From Chloroflexota bacterium (GTDB taxonomy: Bacteria; Chloroflexota; UBA6077; FW602-bin22; JAMCYS01), in contig JAMCYS010000001.1 of the NCBI GenBank assembly GCA_023473795.1, forward strand, positions 1 to 52,695: a stretch of DNA of 52,695 bases, written 5' to 3'. The notes under the pieces were generated by a model. The model searched no databases and had not been told where the DNA came from. It saw only the letters and a list, made by a program, of their open reading frames with translations. Made by a program: the position numbers and the translations under genes. Shown here one piece after another: positions 1,783-38,485 of the stretch (positions within the stretch are counted from its first letter, which is position 1; every line of letters starts with the position of its first letter).

Positions 1783-3048
1783 TTAGCCGCCGCGGCAACC
1801 CTGCGCGCCGGCCGCCGACACGTACTGCTCCCAGCTCATGTAAGGCTTGCCCTGGTCCACGCGCGCCATGGCGATGGCGCCCTCCACCGGGCAGGCCAGC
1901 AGACAGAGATTGCAGCCCACGCAGGTCTCCTGGTCGACCATTGGCACCCTGGTGCCGGTTTGCAGTCTGATCGAGTCGTGGCCGCCGTCCCGGCAGGCCG
2001 CGAAGCAGACCTGGCAGCCGATGCACTTCGCCTCGACGATCTGTGAGCGCACTTGGTAGTTGAGGTCGAGCTTGCCCCAATCCGTGAGGCTCGGCACCGC
2101 CTTGCCGATGATCTCCTGAATGGAGTGGAAGCCCTTGTCCTCCAAGTAGTTCGTGACGCCGTCGATCATGTCCTCGATGATGCGGAAGCCCCAGTGCATG
2201 ACCGCGGTGTGCACCTGGGTGCTGGTCGCGCCCATAACCATGAACTCCAGGACATCGCGCCAGGTGGTGATGCCGCCTATACCCGAGATGGGCAGGCCAA
2301 ACTCCTCGTCTTGCGCCAGCGTGGCCACCATGTTGAGGGCAATGGGCTTCACCGCAGGCCCGCAGTAGCCGCCGTGCGTACCCCGGCCGTTGACCGAGGG
2401 AATGGGCTCGAAGCGATCCAGATCCACGCCGATGATGCTGCTGATCGTGTTGATCAGGGACACGCCGTCGGCGCCGCCGGCTTTCGCGGCCCGCGCCGGC
2501 TGCCGGATGTCGCTGATGTTGGGCGTTAGCTTGACGATGACCGGCGTGCGGGCCACCGATTTCACCCAGTCGGTGGTGCGCTCGGTGTACTCGGGCACCT
2601 GCCCCACGGCGGCGCCCATGCCCCGCTCGTGCATGCCGTGCGGACAGCTGAAATTCAGCTCCAGGCCGTCGCAGCCGGACTCCTCGACCTGGCGTACGAG
2701 CTCCTGCCAGGCCTCTTTCTTGCTTTCGGCCATAATCGAGGCGACGACTGCCTGCTGGGGCCAGCGGCGTTTGATGTCGGCGATCTCGCGCACGTTGTCC
2801 TCGATTGAACGGTCTGAGATCAGCTCGATGTTGTTCAGCCCAACCAGGCGCCGGGCGCCGTAGTTGAGTCCGCCCAAGCGCGAGCTGACGTTGATGATCG
2901 GCGTGCCGATGGTTTTCCAGACGAAGCCGCCCCAACCGGCGGCGAAGGCCAGGTCGGCTTGTTTGGCGGTATTGGTGACGGGCCCGGACGACAGCCAGAA
3001 CGGGCTGGGTGCTTTGATGCCGGCCAGATTGACACTCAGATCTACCAT
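1783..3048 (-). CDS. preA: NAD(P)-dependent dihydropyrimidine dehydrogenase, catalytic subunit PreA
   Basis: 421 residues, catalysing reduction of uracil or thymine to the 5,6-dihydro form. Residues 1-310 form a dihydroorotate-dehydrogenase-like FMN barrel; the active-site loop ELNFSCPHGM carries the general-acid cysteine (about Cys135), as in eukaryotic DPD. The C-terminus holds two [4Fe-4S] motifs, CIGCQVCFAAC and CVGCNLCLLAC, which bridge electrons from PreT. The ATG start has an AAGGAGAACAGG ribosome site. It follows preT by 27 bases, so the two subunits are co-translated. The 3' end is rich in G+C and followed by a 116-base gap before hydA. Assignment is firm; preference for uracil versus thymine cannot be told from sequence. 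Confidence 0.96.
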   Translation of the reverse strand: MVDLSVNLAGIKAPSPFWLSSGPVTNTAKQADLAFAAGWGGFVWKTIGTPIINVSSRLGGLNYGARRLVGLNNIELISDRSIEDNVREIADIKRRWPQQAVVASIMAESKKEAWQELVRQVEESGCDGLELNFSCPHGMHERGMGAAVGQVPEYTERTTDWVKSVARTPVIVKLTPNISDIRQPARAAKAGGADGVSLINTISSIIGVDLDRFEPIPSVNGRGTHGGYCGPAVKPIALNMVATLAQDEEFGLPISGIGGITTWRDVLEFMVMGATSTQVHTAVMHWGFRIIEDMIDGVTNYLEDKGFHSIQEIIGKAVPSLTDWGKLDLNYQVRSQIVEAKCIGCQVCFAACRDGGHDSIRLQTGTRVPMVDQETCVGCNLCLLACPVEGAIAMARVDQGKPYMSWEQYVSAAGAQGCRGG

Positions 3049-3075: not shown

Positions 3076-4410
3076 CTAGGCCACGATCGCGGCGTGGATG
3101 CCCCGCGCTGCCCGCTTGGCCTGTTGCACGGCGAAAACGACCTCGCCCCCGCCGGAAACGCAGTCGCCGCCGGCGAAGATTCGTGGCTGCGAAGTGCGAC
3201 CCGTCTCGGCGTCAACCTCGAGCCGCCCGCCCTTCACCTGCAGCCCCAGGCGGGCGATTGTGCTCGCCAGGGGCGCCTGCCCGAGAGCCTTGATCACGGT
3301 GTCCACTGCCATCACGTACTTGCTGCTGGGCACAGGCTGCGGCCGGCGCCGCCCGCTCTCGTCCGGCGCCGCCAACTGCGTGCGCACGCATTCCAGGCCG
3401 GCGACCTGCCCCTTGCCCACGATGCGGACCGGTGCCGCCAGCCACTGGAAATTGACGCCCTCCCCGCGGGCGAAGTCGACCTCGTACTTGTAGGCGGGCA
3501 TCTCCTCCTGGCCGCGGCGGTAGACGACCGTCACCTCGCGCGCTCCCAGTCGCCTGGCCACAGTAGCGGCGTCGATCGCGGTGTTGCCGCCGCCGACGAC
3601 GGCTACCCGCTCGCCAATCCGGATGTGGCCGAGATCGCCCAACTTGGCGGCGGCGATGAGGTCGAGCGCCTCGTAGACGCCGGACAACTCCTCCCCGGGG
3701 ACGCCCAGGTGGGCACCCCCGCCGAGGCCGATAGCCACAAATAGGGCGTCGTAGTCCCGCAGCAGATCCTCAGGCTGCACGTCCCGACCGACCGCCACCC
3801 CCGTTCGGATGGCGACCCCCAGTCCGCGCACCATCTCTACTTCCGCCAGGCTGTTCTCGAGGGGCAGGCGGAGGGGTACGATGCCGTAGGTGTTGAGTCC
3901 GCCGGCCTTCTCGCGCGCCTCGAAGACGGTCACCGCGTGGCCAAGCTGCGCCAGTTCGGCGGCGCAGGTCAGGCCAGCGGGCCCGCCGCCGATCACCGCC
4001 ACTCGTTTGCCGGTCGGTCTGCCAGCCCGCAGTACGCTCTTGCTGTTCGCCGCCGCCCAATCGGTGACGGAGCGCTGCAGACGACCGATGGCCACCGGCC
4101 TATTCGTCTTGCCGACCACGCAAGCCCCTTCGCAGAGCTCGTCGACCGGGCAGACCCGGGCGCAGCTGGCGCCCAGCGGATTGGCCTGGAGGATGACGCG
4201 CGCCGCGCCCCGGAGGTTACCCGTGGTGATCTTGCGGATGAACGCCGACACGTCGACCGCCGCCGGGCAGGCCTGCGCACAGGGAGCGTCGAAACAGTAC
4301 AGGCAGCGCGCTGCTTCGTCCAGCGCGGCCTGGCTGCTGAACGGCGGCGTCACCTCGTTCAGCCTGCCGACCGCCACTCCCCCGCCGAGTTCGCTCGTCC
4401 CTTCGCTCAT
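3076..4410 (-). CDS. preT: Dihydropyrimidine dehydrogenase, electron-transfer subunit PreT (GltD-like)
   Basis: 444 residues, the NAD(P)H-oxidising partner of PreA. The N-terminal domain has the DPD/GltD cysteine pattern (CLYCFDAPCAQACP at about 36-49 and CARVCPVDELCEGAC at about 83-97). It is followed by an FAD dinucleotide fold (VAVIGGGPAGLTCA, about 138-150) and an NADPH fold (VAVVGGGNTAIDAA), then VVYRRGQEEMPA and the GGDC FAD-closing motif. The ATG at 4410 follows AAGGAGGAATCA at ideal spacing. It is the first gene of the pyrimidine-degradation operon and is transcribed away from the NCS1 permease. Its first 17 bases and leader are the part duplicated in inverse orientation at the window edge. 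Confidence 0.95.
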   Translation of the reverse strand: MSEGTSELGGGVAVGRLNEVTPPFSSQAALDEAARCLYCFDAPCAQACPAAVDVSAFIRKITTGNLRGAARVILQANPLGASCARVCPVDELCEGACVVGKTNRPVAIGRLQRSVTDWAAANSKSVLRAGRPTGKRVAVIGGGPAGLTCAAELAQLGHAVTVFEAREKAGGLNTYGIVPLRLPLENSLAEVEMVRGLGVAIRTGVAVGRDVQPEDLLRDYDALFVAIGLGGGAHLGVPGEELSGVYEALDLIAAAKLGDLGHIRIGERVAVVGGGNTAIDAATVARRLGAREVTVVYRRGQEEMPAYKYEVDFARGEGVNFQWLAAPVRIVGKGQVAGLECVRTQLAAPDESGRRRPQPVPSSKYVMAVDTVIKALGQAPLASTIARLGLQVKGGRLEVDAETGRTSQPRIFAGGDCVSGGGEVVFAVQQAKRAARGIHAAIVA

Positions 4411-4492
4411 TGATTCCTCCTTAGTGAGCGTTTGCCATTGCCCACGGCTGCAGCAGAGCCGCCAGCAAAGCGCGAGGCACAGGACGCAATAC
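4394..4492 (+). repeat. Parent copy of the 99-bp edge repeat
   Basis: This stretch covers the preT start codon, ribosome site and adjacent leader, and is matched base for base by the reverse complement of 1-99. The preT promoter palindrome at 4543-4560 lies outside the copied part. Confidence 0.95.
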
Positions 4493-4542
4493 TCCCGCCG
4501 AGACCAACAACAAAACCACGGGTACCGATGGCAACCGTGCCG

Positions 4543-4560
4543 CGGCTACTATAGCAGCCG
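4543..4560 (-). promoter_or_regulatory. Probable preT operon -10 box inside an 18-bp palindrome
   Basis: On the minus strand the sequence CGGCTGCTATAGTAGCCG contains an extended -10 element (TGC TATAGT) and is itself a palindrome with one mismatched pair. No good -35 hexamer lies 17 bases upstream, which would suit an activated or repressed promoter. A regulator dimer binding here would cover the -10 box. Inferred from sequence only. Confidence 0.5.
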
Positions 4561-4636
4561 AGGGTAGGCAAGTACATGCTAATCGACCGCGGGTTCGAGG
4601 CAGGCGCTGGCTCCATTATGGCAGGTGGTTACAGTA

Positions 4637-4664
4637 TTGACAAATGGGCTGGGCTCGCTATACT
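4637..4664 (+). promoter_or_regulatory. Sigma70-type promoter for the NCS1 permease leader
   Basis: TTGACA (4637-4642), a 16-base spacer and TATACT (4659-4664) on the plus strand. Transcription from here would give a leader of about 400 nt before the permease start at 5077. It lies back to back with the preT promoter. Confidence 0.6.
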
Positions 4665-4670
4665 CATGGA

Positions 4671-5076
4671 CTTAATTGGCCCTTCAGAATTGAGCCATTG
4701 CCGCGTCGTCGCGGGCAGATTGAGGCGGAGACGGCCTTCAAGCACTAATGCGTGCCTCCTTTGCCCGCTGGCAGATAGTTCCCGCGACTTGGTACTTGGC
4801 GATAGGCCGCGCACTCTGGGCAGCAATTACTGTGCTGGAGGGTCACAATGCCGGACTGGCGACGCGGCACTGAAGTGGCGCTCAGACCATCACCGTCCGC
4901 CGACAAGGCGGGCCTGATGGTCTTTTTCATTGCCCGGTCGGTCGCCAGACCGAGGGAAGGAGGTGAGGCGCCAAGCGACTAGACAACCGGCCGCGCTGTT
5001 CAGTGTCAATTGGCAACCAACGCGGAACTGAGGTTGGTACGAAATCATTGTCCCCTAGTGATGGAAGGAAGGTGCA
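4671..5076 (+). promoter_or_regulatory. Long untranslated leader of the NCS1 permease, candidate cis-regulatory RNA
   Basis: About 400 bases without a convincing reading frame lie between a good promoter and the permease start. The segment contains several potential helices, an intrinsic terminator at 4884-4927, a small hairpin with CGGTC/GACCG arms near 4938-4957 and an unused AAGGAGGTGAGG stretch at about 4959-4970. I do not recognise a known riboswitch or T-box consensus. The arrangement (promoter, structured leader, terminator, transporter) is typical of attenuation. Confidence 0.45.
4884..4927 (+). terminator. Intrinsic terminator within the NCS1 leader
   Basis: AGACCATCA and TGATGGTCT form a perfect 9-bp outer stem around an inner CCGCC/GGCGG helix, followed directly by five T residues. 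It lies 150 bases before the permease start, so it would stop transcription before the coding region unless opposed by an alternative fold. Confidence 0.75.
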
Positions 5077-6546
5077 GTGGTGGCAAGTCTTGCCTCTGTG
5101 GTTAGAGAGGTAGACGGCCGGTTCGAGCTCACGCAAGAGCTGCCGACCAGCTCTCTCTACAACAAGGACCTGGCCCCAACCCCGCTCTCGGCACGCACCT
5201 GGGGCTACTACGAGTACGCCTCGATCTGGATTGGCCTCGCCGTGTGCGTGCCCACGTGGATGCTCGGCTCGAGCATGATCGCGGCCGGCTTCGACTGGGT
5301 AACCACGATGATCACCATCGCCCTGGGCAACTGTATCGTCCTGGTCCCGATGGTCATGAACTCCTTCCCCGGGGCGAAGTTCGGCATCCCCTTCGCGGTG
5401 CTGCTCCGTTCCAGCTTCGGCGTCTACGGCACCAATCTACCCAGCATTCTGAGAGGAATCGTCGCCTGCGGCTGGTTTGGCATCCAGACCTGGATCGGCG
5501 GTGCCTCGATCGACGGTCTGCTCACCGCTCTCACCCCCGCCTGGGCAGTGGTTCCAGCCCACGTCTGGGTTTCCTTCTTCGTGTTCTGGGCAATGAACAT
5601 GGCCATCTGCTGGTACGCCCCGCCGGGCAAATCGATGCCTGGGGTCAAGTTGATGGCCGACTACGCCGCCCCAATACTGCTGCTCATCGGCGTTGGCCTG
5701 CTCTGGTGGGCCGTTTCCGCAGCCGGTGGTTGGGGCCCGATGCTAAACCAGCCCAACAAGGCAGACATGGCCCTCTGGCCGGCCTTCCTCACCGCAATGG
5801 TCGCCTACTGGGCGACGATGGCCCTGTCCATCGCCGACATCACGCGCTTCGCCCGCAACCAGAAGGTGCAGTACTGGGGCCAGATCCTCGGCATGCCGAC
5901 CACGATGACCGTTTACGCCTTCTTCGGCGTAGCGGTGACCTCGGCTACCGTGGTCATCTACGGCAGCGCCGTCTGGGATCCCATCGAGGTGATGACGAAG
6001 ACCGGCAATCCGTTGTTCATGTTTGTCGGCCTGATCTTCATCATCCTGGCCACCCTGACGACTAACGTCACCGCCAACATCGTTGCCCCGGCCTACGCCT
6101 TCACCAACCTGTTCCCGAAGTACATCTCCTGGCGCGTGGGGGCGATTCTCACCGGAATCGTCGGCGTGATTATGCAGCCCTGGAACCTGCTGGCCGACCC
6201 AACCGCTTACATCTTCACCTGGCTGGGCAACTACTCGGGCTTCCTGGGGCCCATCGCCGGCATCATGATCGCCGACTACTGGATCTGCCGGCGGCACAAC
6301 CTCCACCTGCACGATCTTTACCTCCCCAATGGCCGCTATCGCTACATGAACGGCTGGAACCCCGCCGGCGTCGGCGCCTTGATCGTCGCCGTCGTCGTCT
6401 GCTTCCTGCCCTTCCCGTTCATGACCGACTGGCGGTGGTTCATCGGCGCCTTCGTCGGGCTTGTAGTCTATTGGCTGCTCTACGAGTTCTATCTGGTCAA
6501 GAACTACGAAGGCGAAGCGGCCTCCGCTGGACGCAGTGCGACCTAG
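5077..6546 (+). CDS. NCS1-family nucleobase:cation symporter
   Basis: 489 residues with about twelve hydrophobic segments. The N-terminal stretch YNKDLAPTPLSARTWGYYEY and following SIWIGLAVCVPTW are the hallmark of the NCS1 family (uracil, allantoin, hydantoin, cytosine and purine permeases; Mhp1 fold). The start is GTG at 5077, five bases after a GGAAGG ribosome site. It is divergent from the preT-preA-hydA operon, so uptake of uracil/thymine or a related dihydropyrimidine or hydantoin is the natural inference. The exact substrate cannot be read from sequence. A terminator follows 20 bases after the stop. Confidence 0.92.
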   Translation: MVASLASVVREVDGRFELTQELPTSSLYNKDLAPTPLSARTWGYYEYASIWIGLAVCVPTWMLGSSMIAAGFDWVTTMITIALGNCIVLVPMVMNSFPGAKFGIPFAVLLRSSFGVYGTNLPSILRGIVACGWFGIQTWIGGASIDGLLTALTPAWAVVPAHVWVSFFVFWAMNMAICWYAPPGKSMPGVKLMADYAAPILLLIGVGLLWWAVSAAGGWGPMLNQPNKADMALWPAFLTAMVAYWATMALSIADITRFARNQKVQYWGQILGMPTTMTVYAFFGVAVTSATVVIYGSAVWDPIEVMTKTGNPLFMFVGLIFIILATLTTNVTANIVAPAYAFTNLFPKYISWRVGAILTGIVGVIMQPWNLLADPTAYIFTWLGNYSGFLGPIAGIMIADYWICRRHNLHLHDLYLPNGRYRYMNGWNPAGVGALIVAVVVCFLPFPFMTDWRWFIGAFVGLVVYWLLYEFYLVKNYEGEAASAGRSAT

Positions 6547-35112: not shown

Positions 35113-35916
35113 ATGAACTCTAGACCTGGTCCTGGGCGCCTGCGGGGCAAGTCGGCCATTGTCACCGGCGGCAGTCGCGGCATCGGCCTGGCCATCGCCC
35201 GGGGTCTTGCCCGCGAGGGGGCCAACGTCGTCCTGGCGGGGCGGCAGGGGAGCGCGTTGGCCGGTCCGGCGGCGGAGCTGGCTGGGCTGGGCGTCAAAGC
35301 CATTCCCGTGCAGGCCGATGTATCTCAACAACCCGACGTTGAGCGCCTGGTGGCGCGGGCGGTCGACGAGCTGGGCAGGGTGGACATTCTGGTCAACAAC
35401 GCTGGCATCCAATACCGCTTGCCAAGCGAGCAAATGGACATCGAGGGCTGGCGGCGGGTAATCGACACCAACCTCAACGGCGTCTTCATGTGCTGCCAGG
35501 CCGCCGGGCGGGTTATGCTCAAGCAGCGCTCCGGCAGCATCATCAACATCGCCTCGCTCTCGTCGTTCGTCGGCATGCCGCAGCGGGCGCCCTACGGCAC
35601 CGCCAAGACGGCGGTCGTGGGCCTAACCAGGGTGTTGGCGGCGGAGTGGGGAAGACGCGGGGTGCGGGTCAATGCCATCGCCCCCGGCTACATTCTCACC
35701 GAGATGACGAAGAACGCCATCGCCACCGGCATGCTGGCGCCTGAGGAGATCATTGCCCGCACCCCTCTGGGGCGCATGGGCGAGCCGGAAGACATGGCTG
35801 GTCTGGCGATCTTCCTCGCCTCCGACGAGTCGGCCTTCATCACCGGCCAGACCATCGCCGCCGACGGCGGCTTCCTGGCCTATGGTTACCTGAGGACCGG
35901 CTCCGAGGTGGAGTGA
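35113..35916 (+). CDS. SDR-family oxidoreductase (gluconate 5-dehydrogenase / FabG-like)
   Basis: 267 residues, classical short-chain dehydrogenase: cofactor loop TGGSRGIG, NNAG motif in LVNNAGIQY, catalytic Ser in IASLSS and YGTAK (Tyr, Lys). The start follows AGAGGTG. Closest in feel to gluconate or sugar-alcohol 5-dehydrogenases. It stands just downstream of the carbohydrate importer beyond a terminator and repeat, so action on the imported sugar is possible but not shown. Confidence 0.9.
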   Translation: MNSRPGPGRLRGKSAIVTGGSRGIGLAIARGLAREGANVVLAGRQGSALAGPAAELAGLGVKAIPVQADVSQQPDVERLVARAVDELGRVDILVNNAGIQYRLPSEQMDIEGWRRVIDTNLNGVFMCCQAAGRVMLKQRSGSIINIASLSSFVGMPQRAPYGTAKTAVVGLTRVLAAEWGRRGVRVNAIAPGYILTEMTKNAIATGMLAPEEIIARTPLGRMGEPEDMAGLAIFLASDESAFITGQTIAADGGFLAYGYLRTGSEVE

Positions 35917-36207: not shown

Positions 36208-36210
36208 CCC

Positions 36211-36250
36211 AAAAACCGGGGGCGGCCGCTGCCTGCCGCCCCCGGTTTTT
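36211..36250. terminator. Bidirectional terminator between MoaD-like gene and oxidoreductase
   Basis: AAAAACCGGGGGCGGC and GCCGCCCCCGGTTTTT form a perfect 16-bp stem with A/T runs on both sides, so it works on either strand. Confidence 0.85.
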
Positions 36251-36378
36251 CTGTCCCCTCTCCGCAACGGGGTTCTGAGCGGACAGTTTGCGATCCGCGG
36301 TGGCGCGGGACCGCCGCCCGTAGACTGTCGAAGTCACGGGGTCGCCGTCGCCCGGCCATAAATGAGCCGGGCTCAGAG

Positions 36379-36610: not shown

Positions 36611-38485
36611 CTACCGCGCCACGTCGGCCAGCAGCTCGCCCAGGCCCAGCTTAGCCAACCGATCCTTGGCAATGGCACCGCTCGCGCGGTCCCAGGCCAT
36701 CGCGTCGTGGAACTCGCCCACCAGGGTGTCTATGTCGATCGTCACGCCCGCAGTCGGGCCCACGTTGATCGGCGGCTTGCCCACCATGCGATCGGGCAAA
36801 ACGAAGTCCGCTGGCTTCAGACCCTCGCGGACATTGAAGGCGTGGCGCAGCTGCTGGATGCGCTCGCCCGTGGTCAGCAGCTCGTCCAAAGTGAAGTCCC
36901 AGCCGGTCGTGGCTGAGATGTACTCGTCCAGCATGTAGCCCATGCCGCTCGGCATCAGGCATAAGCCAGAGGCTTCGGTTACCTGTTTGTAATTGGCCCA
37001 GACTGTCTGCAGCTCGCCCTTGCCCGCGTACTGGTAACGCTCCACCTTCGGCAGGGTGAGGGCGGGGTGGGGCGAGGTGCCGCGGCCAAACTCGGGTGCC
37101 GAGGCGTTGCCAGTGGTGTGGCGCCCCGGGGTTGGGTCGGCTACGTAGGAGGTGCCGCGGCTGGGGCAGAGCTTGCTGTCGTGGAAGCCGGGCTCCTGGC
37201 CGCCGATGTGGACGGCGTATTTGTCCGCGCTCTTGCCGATGCGCTCCGCCGCTACCTTCACGCCGTCGGCGAAGATTGCGCCCAGCCCCTCGCGTTTGGC
37301 GATCTTCTCCAGCAGTGCCACTATCGCCGCGTGGTTGCCCCAGGCCAGGTCCAGACCGCCGGCCTGCTCCTTGGAGATGAGCCCGTTCTCGTAGCACTCG
37401 ATGGCCATCGCCACGCAGGTGCCCGCCGAGATGGTGTCCAGCCCCGCGCGGTTGCAGATGTCGTTGCACTTAATGATCGACTCGACGTTGCTGTTCAGGC
37501 AGAGCGTGCCGAAGGCCGCCAAAGTCTCATACTCAGGCTTGTGCGCTTCTTTGACGGCGTAGGCGCCTACTTCGTTCTTGAAGACGCCGCCGCAGGCGAT
37601 GGGGCAGCCATAGCAGGCGTAGCGCTTCGTCTGGTACTTGGTGACGTTGTCGCCGTTGATCAGATCGACCTCGGGGAAGCTCTCGCGCCCGCCCAGCGAC
37701 CAGTTCTTCGGCGCCGTCGAACCCAGCGTCAGGTTCGGCGCCACGTTGCCGGCCGTGCCCCATTTCCGCAGCGTGGTGGCCTGGGGGGTGGGGTTCTCGC
37801 GCAGGCGCTTGACGAAGTCGGCCTTCAGCTCGTTGAGTTTCTTGCTGTTACCCACTGGCACCTTGCCGGTGCCGCGCACGACCACAGCCTTGAGCTGTTT
37901 GGCGCCCATGACGGCGCCCAGGCCGGACCGGCCCGCCGTGCGGCCCTTGTCGTGCATCACGCAGGCGATCAGCGACTTGGTCTCGCCCGCCTGGCCGATG
38001 CAGGCGATGCGCGCCTTCTCGCCCACCTCGGCGTGCAGCGCGTCCTCGGTCTCGTTGGAGTCGAGCCCCCAGACCTTGCCCGCGTCGCGAATCTCGGCCT
38101 TGCCGTTCTCGACGTATACATAGACCGGCTTCTGAGCGCTGCCCTTGACGAAGATGGCGTCGTAGCCGGCGTTCTTCATCTCGGCGCCGAAGAAGCCGCC
38201 GCAGCTGGCGTCGCCCCAGGTGCCGGTGAGCGGCGACTTGCCGGCGACGCACCAGCGCGACGAGCCCGGCGCGGCCGTGGCGCCCAGCACGCCGCAGGCG
38301 AAGGCGAGGAGGTTGTCCGGGCCCAGCGCGTCCACTCCGGCCGGCTGGCGCTCGTAGATGATCCTGGCGGCCAGGCCGTAGCCGCCGATGTAATCGCGGT
38401 ACATCTTCTCGGGCAGAGCCTCGTCCCAAGTCTTGCCCGCGCTCAGGTCCACCCACAGGACCTTGCCTAAGTATCCCCCTGGCAT
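36611..38485 (-). CDS. aor: Aldehyde:ferredoxin oxidoreductase (tungsten/molybdopterin enzyme)
   Basis: 624 residues. The [4Fe-4S] ligands are in CYGCPIAC (Cys291, Cys294, Cys298) with the distant fourth at Cys509 (SGLCLMPSG). Pterin-binding family motifs include ASCGGFFGAEMKNAGYDAI, the AGRSGLGAVMGAKQLKAV stretch and YAVHIGGQEPGFHDSK. The start ATG 38485 follows AAGGAGAATCT. It oxidises aldehydes to acids with ferredoxin (or the reverse), in the cytoplasm and usually under low oxygen. It has a near-consensus promoter (38568-38596) and a MoaD-like gene downstream. Substrate range within the AOR family (AOR, FOR, GOR, BAM-type) is not resolved. Confidence 0.94.
   Translation of the reverse strand: MPGGYLGKVLWVDLSAGKTWDEALPEKMYRDYIGGYGLAARIIYERQPAGVDALGPDNLLAFACGVLGATAAPGSSRWCVAGKSPLTGTWGDASCGGFFGAEMKNAGYDAIFVKGSAQKPVYVYVENGKAEIRDAGKVWGLDSNETEDALHAEVGEKARIACIGQAGETKSLIACVMHDKGRTAGRSGLGAVMGAKQLKAVVVRGTGKVPVGNSKKLNELKADFVKRLRENPTPQATTLRKWGTAGNVAPNLTLGSTAPKNWSLGGRESFPEVDLINGDNVTKYQTKRYACYGCPIACGGVFKNEVGAYAVKEAHKPEYETLAAFGTLCLNSNVESIIKCNDICNRAGLDTISAGTCVAMAIECYENGLISKEQAGGLDLAWGNHAAIVALLEKIAKREGLGAIFADGVKVAAERIGKSADKYAVHIGGQEPGFHDSKLCPSRGTSYVADPTPGRHTTGNASAPEFGRGTSPHPALTLPKVERYQYAGKGELQTVWANYKQVTEASGLCLMPSGMGYMLDEYISATTGWDFTLDELLTTGERIQQLRHAFNVREGLKPADFVLPDRMVGKPPINVGPTAGVTIDIDTLVGEFHDAMAWDRASGAIAKDRLAKLGLGELLADVAR

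Follow-up and report, generated by a model that had tools for sequence, protein, structure and literature searches.

The NCS1-family permease gene in this Chloroflexota genome is preceded by what is probably an ordinary premature-termination leader, an orphan in sequence, with a candidate translation-coupled switch. We analyzed a window of 52,695 nucleotides, the start of contig C44 in a genome of 4.44 Mb and 170 contigs. The sequence signals lend good support to a transcript that probably starts at about 4671 and stops, at least in part, at about 4927, ahead of the permease. Our best explanation, favored only tentatively, is that the leader is an orphan attenuator of the permease in which translation most likely sets the level of read-through. 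The evidence for the stop is set out first, followed by the evidence for a switch.

The permease lies on the + strand at 5077 to 6546, with GTG 5077 or GTG 5080 as its start. It was predicted to be an NCS1 permease, and this assignment held: it is a nucleobase/allantoin-type member of the family that scores 345.7 bits against TIGR00800 (E 3.4e-103), slightly below the cut-off of 353.1. The leader separates it from a divergent, - strand operon for reductive pyrimidine degradation. This operon contains a D-hydantoinase/dihydropyrimidinase (287 to 1675; TIGR02033, 643.8 bits, cut-off 393.25), the dihydropyrimidine dehydrogenase subunit PreA (1783 to 3048; NF006183, 627.4 bits, cut-off 335) and, as the divergent neighbor of the permease, a GltD/PreT-type flavoprotein (3076 to 4410). 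The flavoprotein reached no equivalog cut-off among the matches listed; we call it a PreT-like NAD(P)-binding subunit because its neighbor is PreA. Positions 1 to 99 of the window are the exact reverse complement of 4394 to 4492, which span the start of preT and its upstream sequence, and the 99 bases occur nowhere else in the genome. Their exact length suggests an assembly-graph overlap, and the copy would therefore be an artefact of the contig end or else reflect an inverted junction, supported by reads, of the preT-preA-hydantoinase segment.

We found the promoter of the leader to be as good as originally predicted. It is a sigma70-type site on the + strand (4637 to 4664; TTGACA-16-TATACT) that agrees with the consensus at 11 of 12 positions, and just 1 of 2,000 shuffles of 4411 to 5076 yielded a + strand site that equalled it. 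Genome-wide, TTGACA-N16-18-TATACT has 22 occurrences, 12 forward and 10 reverse, versus none for the same pattern read backwards. The pattern is therefore real promoter grammar in this genome. Facing preT on the - strand is a promoter-like site (4615 to 4643; TTGTCA-17-CATAAT) with a TG ahead of its -10 and 10 of 12 matches. The -35 hexamer is common to both sites (TTGACAA, within 4615 to 4664), and transcription of the permease and of preT could compete through it.

The second element, an intrinsic terminator with a T-tail at 4884 to 4927 on the + strand, was likewise confirmed. Its 40-nt hairpin, AGACCATCA..CCGCC-GACAA-GGCGG..TGATGGTCT, occupies 4884 to 4923 and is followed by TTTT to 4927, which gives a T run from 4923 to 4927. 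The predicted stability of -27.2 kcal/mol was equalled in 1 of 300 shuffles of the leader, and 40 of 300 reached -15 or better; locally, 4884 to 4927 is extreme (z -6.9, with 0 of 300 shuffles as stable). A simple consensus scan for terminators in the leader region found 3 against 2.1 +/- 1.5 expected and by itself does not separate the site from chance. In a scan of the window, which also reports many weaker matches within genes, the leader hairpin was among the strongest compact hairpins with a T-tail. Those of similar strength (6593 on the + strand, 36248/36214 on the +/- strands and 11280 on the - strand) sit at or between gene ends, and such hairpins therefore probably terminate transcription in this genome. 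The one at about 36208 to 36255 is a bidirectional terminator of very high stability (-32 kcal/mol), with a T-tail on each strand, that separates the convergent genes at 35113 to 35916 and 36611 to 38485. The leader hairpin (scan position 4921) has no gene on the same strand ahead of it. We also compared 20 of the 22 genomic loci with the promoter pattern, 17 of which had 600 nt of downstream sequence; a hairpin of -20 or better within that distance was present at the permease leader only.

Promoter, intrinsic terminator and gene thus follow one another on a single strand, the general arrangement of an attenuator leader. A search of 4881 to 5070 for sigma70-like sites with at least 8 of 12 matches, confined to this type of promoter, found none. 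This fits read-through, and together with the order of the elements it makes premature termination with read-through the simplest reading. Since a convincing start signal is followed by an early stop signal, we conclude that transcription is probably throttled before it reaches the permease gene. RNA polymerase would start at about 4671, a position deduced from a promoter that itself stands on sequence statistics. By default, many transcripts would stop at about 4924 to 4927, giving an RNA of roughly 255 nt, and the permease would be expressed from the fraction that reads through. In E. coli, transcripts are reported to end prematurely within 5' leaders on an extensive scale (PMC7815308), and an attenuated leader is therefore nothing out of the ordinary.

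Could the promoter and terminator instead bound an independent small RNA gene of about 255 nt, with the promoter of the permease located behind 4927? The two signals do enclose a compact unit. However, promoter-like sites with at least 8 of 12 matches, as sought for sigma70, are absent behind the terminator, the RNA belongs to no Rfam family and has no copy or relative in its own genome or in 400 genomes of the phylum, and its body is not structured beyond chance. We consider a separate small RNA unlikely.

The stretch between promoter and terminator had originally been described as structured, and our results do not support this description. The leader 5' of the terminator (4671 to 4883, + strand) has no structure beyond chance: 4671 to 4882 folded with a z of -0.93 relative to shuffles (55 of 300 as good), 4671 to 4905 with +0.07 and 4694 to 4874 with -1.03. 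The corresponding values were +1.21 for 4928 to 5076 and -0.60 for the whole leader of 406 nt. When the hairpin was included, 4671 to 4935 gave a z of -2.55, but this is owed to the terminator, as the two segments lacking it or its 3' part (4671 to 4882 and 4671 to 4905) make plain. The best case for structure is 4679 to 4880 (z -1.71, 11 of 300 shuffles as good), which contains one long-range helix, 4696-4708/4860-4872, formed by a 13-nt inverted repeat that is 92% complementary.

An antiterminator was no more apparent. The best duplex between the 5' arm of the terminator and the upstream leader was matched or beaten in 185 of 300 shuffles, and computed folding left this arm, before synthesis of the 3' arm, largely unpaired or in weak local pairs. 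One pairing spotted by eye, GGCGGAGACGG (4724 to 4734) with CCGTCCGCC, was not preferred; the best duplex of the arm lies at 4851 to 4874 and is ordinary. When a GC-rich leader has both a strong promoter and a strong terminator, it can thus mimic a riboswitch though the RNA between the two is shuffle-like.

These folding results bear on a further possibility, which counts against our best explanation: the terminator may just be leaky, without regulation. Expression of the permease would then be cut by a fixed factor, and the rest of the 406 nt would be unconstrained spacer. In favor of this, the leader minus its hairpin folds like shuffles, antiterminator pairing is shuffle-like (185 of 300) and conservation of the leader was found nowhere among the places searched (its own genome, 400 phylum genomes and 82 permease loci). 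Yet to transcribe from a strong promoter into a strong terminator, with no gene ahead of the catabolic transporter that follows, would be wasteful unless the terminator is used, and so stable a downstream hairpin occurred at 1 of the 20 promoter loci fetched, that of the permease. We regard a leaky terminator with no switch as a genuine possibility, if not a likely one.

The orphan status of the leader emerged from several searches. Rfam gave no match in the window at the gathering score, and two at E <=10, both meaningless. A DNA search with 4620 to 5090 against 61 genomes recovered its own copy alone; 15 further matches in its own genome all had an E of 0.157 or more, and no relative was detected among them. 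With 4671 to 4935 as query, 17 of 400 phylum genomes matched at E <=0.01. One was its own, and the other 16 matches span 20 to 34 nt. The 13 of these that were inspected (all except L103, L104 and L105) lie in long open frames or, at L095, in a sequence that by its motif looks like a tRNA. No match to the leader DNA was found in the plasmid collection. We also built an RNA model from one sequence, that of the P1-closed domain (A2 to R1). It matched only itself in the 400 phylum genomes (E <=0.01, stricter filters); besides itself, it gave 4 weak matches in 29 genomes of the class (E 0.145 to 0.81) and 11 weak ones in 83 sources, the window plus 82 permease loci (E at least 0.078).

The related permease loci mostly lack such a leader. 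The nearest permeases fetched are 42 to 53% identical in their best segment. At none of the 82 loci is the permease immediately preceded by a match to PreT or PreA in divergent orientation, and 7 have a terminator-like hairpin ahead of the permease by rough gene calls. These 7 loci and L004 contained no Rfam family. Known regulatory classes were also sought in the leader by pattern, using the core sequence motifs of T-box, PyrR and TRAP sites; all were absent, and GAG/TAG triplets number just 12, at spacings of 5 to 114. The expectation that no known riboswitch, T-box or PyrR site would be recognized therefore stands, on these patterns and on the lack of Rfam matches at the gathering score. 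A literature search found no paper that, judged by its title and the opening of its abstract, concerns such a permease leader.

One candidate for the origin of the leader was rejected. Frame 2 (GGDGLQALMRASFARWQIVP) resembled an alpha-hydroxy-acid oxidase with a score of 61, reached in 1 of 2,000 shuffles, as if it were a gene remnant; the oxidase had been chosen via the hit itself. Against a profile of other members of the family (22 loci, L139 to L160), the leader scored -1.3 bits, a value equalled or exceeded by 67 of the 492 shuffles that received a score. We attribute the likeness to selection, because the oxidase was picked by the short hit and the independent profile scores -1.3 bits.

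Folding, pairing and homolog searches thus provided no evidence of an aptamer in the leader. The original prediction favored an attenuator responsive to uracil or another nucleobase. The part of it that concerns the order of promoter, terminator and gene, and a premature stop, is upheld; the sensor is not, as we found no excess structure outside the terminator, no antiterminator better than chance and no relatives. A new class of metabolite-sensing riboswitch, with a nucleobase or a degradation product as its ligand, would suit a terminator within the long leader of a pyrimidine-pathway transporter and could draw on the 13-nt inverted repeat. Against it, structure outside the terminator and alternative pairing of the terminator arm do not exceed chance, the P1-closed domain has no homolog in the class genomes, the phylum genomes or the permease loci, and related loci mostly lack such a leader (hairpin in 7 of 82). 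A sensor unique to this lineage is conceivable; all the same, we think a riboswitch very unlikely.

What remains as switch-like anatomy is a candidate leader ORF. A Shine-Dalgarno sequence, GGAGG (4837 to 4841, + strand), stands 6 nt ahead of ATG 4848, which opens a frame of 44 codons (ORF44; 4848 to 4982, + strand, ATG to TAG) that stays open through the terminator. The hairpin and its tail are located 36 to 80 nt downstream of the ATG, and the stop codon (4980 to 4982) comes 53 nt past the T-tail; with its stop, ORF44 measures 135 bp. In shuffles with the terminator held fixed, a start preceded by a Shine-Dalgarno sequence and open through the hairpin appeared in 132 of 2,000 cases for any start codon and in 33 of 2,000 for ATG. 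The anatomy of ORF44, seen in 2 to 7% of shuffles, is suggestive and is the only switch-like anatomy we found. The same Shine-Dalgarno rule is satisfied by 40 of 1,062 ATGs in the window. Among 30 gene entries, with the permease entered twice, it is satisfied by 12 at the listed start and by 17 if another start in the same frame, no more than 60 codons away, may be used.

ORF44 is not gene-like in composition, with a GC content by codon position of 66/61/70% versus 54/47/86% in the permease. Its frame had no match in Pfam, and a protein search gave no relative beyond chance: 40 of 400 genomes (its own included) matched at E <=0.1, about the number expected by chance, with a best E of 0.0017 in another genome. 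Two other features nearby did not yield a leader gene. A 41-codon ORF at 4748 to 4873, which ends shortly before the terminator, lacks a Shine-Dalgarno sequence, has a codon-position GC content of 62/60/64% and was rejected. Farther downstream, the perfect Shine-Dalgarno sequence AAGGAGGTGA (4957 to 4966, + strand) is followed by no start codon at a usable distance; AGGAGGTGA occurs once in the window, counting both strands.

Under our preferred explanation of premature termination, the read-through fraction would most likely be set by translation. Going by the anatomy of ORF44, a ribosome starting at ATG 4848 and keeping close behind the polymerase would mask the hairpin's 5' arm, and the polymerase would pass. 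UTP-sensitive pausing is not indicated, because no T run of 4 or more precedes the terminator (4671 to 4883); the 36 nt from ATG 4848 onward hold 5 T. A conditional terminator would mean that pyrimidine scavenging is under RNA-level control in a lineage of which few relatives have been sequenced.

We compared the leader with known systems. Long leaders with a terminator before a biosynthesis or transport gene are also a property of T-box, PyrR-site, purine and other riboswitch leaders, but the permease leader differs from these in having no Rfam match or core motif. The leader GraL of E. coli reportedly consists of a promoter, a non-coding leader and an intrinsic terminator, followed by greA. 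The permease leader shares this layout, as does the greA leader of its own genome; it differs in having no sequence relation, a different gene and twice the length. In that genome, greA (L122, 1301 to 1530, contig C62) has the same promoter pattern, with a hairpin-T6 between promoter and start. GraL is the subject of PMC6829880.

Antitermination by a protein was considered because the genome encodes one ANTAR response regulator next to kinase-like and glutamine synthetase-like ORFs. The regulator (L171, contig C62:84055-84216) has these two ORFs on either side of it; we named them by eye, as histidine kinase-like and glutamine synthetase-like. According to PMC3369931, most ANTAR targets are nitrogen genes, and a target RNA forms a pair of hairpins, each with a hexaloop that carries A1 and G4, of which the second sits at the terminator's 5' base. 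Like the ANTAR leaders of eut, nas and ami, the permease leader has its terminator ahead of a nitrogen-related gene in a genome with an ANTAR protein. Unlike them, it has no dual A..G.. hexaloop hairpins by the terminator: the required second hexaloop is missing at the 5' base, and just two 3-bp hexaloops are present, at 4728 to 4739 and 4799 to 4810, at least 73 nt upstream. Protein-controlled antitermination, by this ANTAR protein or by another RNA-binding antiterminator, is the possibility to which we give least credence.

In a pyrBI-type attenuator, the region before the hairpin at which pausing is sensitive to UTP is T-rich. The permease leader has no T-rich pause stretch ahead of its hairpin, and we therefore do not file it as a member of the pyrBI type. 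It differs further in its setting among transport and degradation genes rather than synthesis genes, in the lack of conservation of ORF44 and in the long leader of 177 nt that precedes ORF44. That it represents a lineage-specific, ribosome-coupled attenuator of the pyrBI type, with a 44-codon ORF that spans the terminator and some signal in place of UTP pausing, controlling pyrimidine uptake and degradation instead of synthesis and far from the enterobacteria, is a doubtful proposition, though not a negligible one. In E. coli pyrBI, according to published accounts, a leader gene of 135 bp contains the terminator (PMC4824070), and termination is prevented by close coupling of the ribosome (PMC4824070, PMC5021804). 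As far as these accounts go, the likenesses to pyrBI and its leader gene pyrL are a 135-bp leader ORF that contains an intrinsic terminator, here the candidate ORF44, a pyrimidine pathway and the order of promoter, leader, terminator and gene (PMC4824070, PMC5021804). The shared length of 135 bp may be a coincidence. By analogy, the permease leader may nonetheless work as the pyrBI attenuator does.
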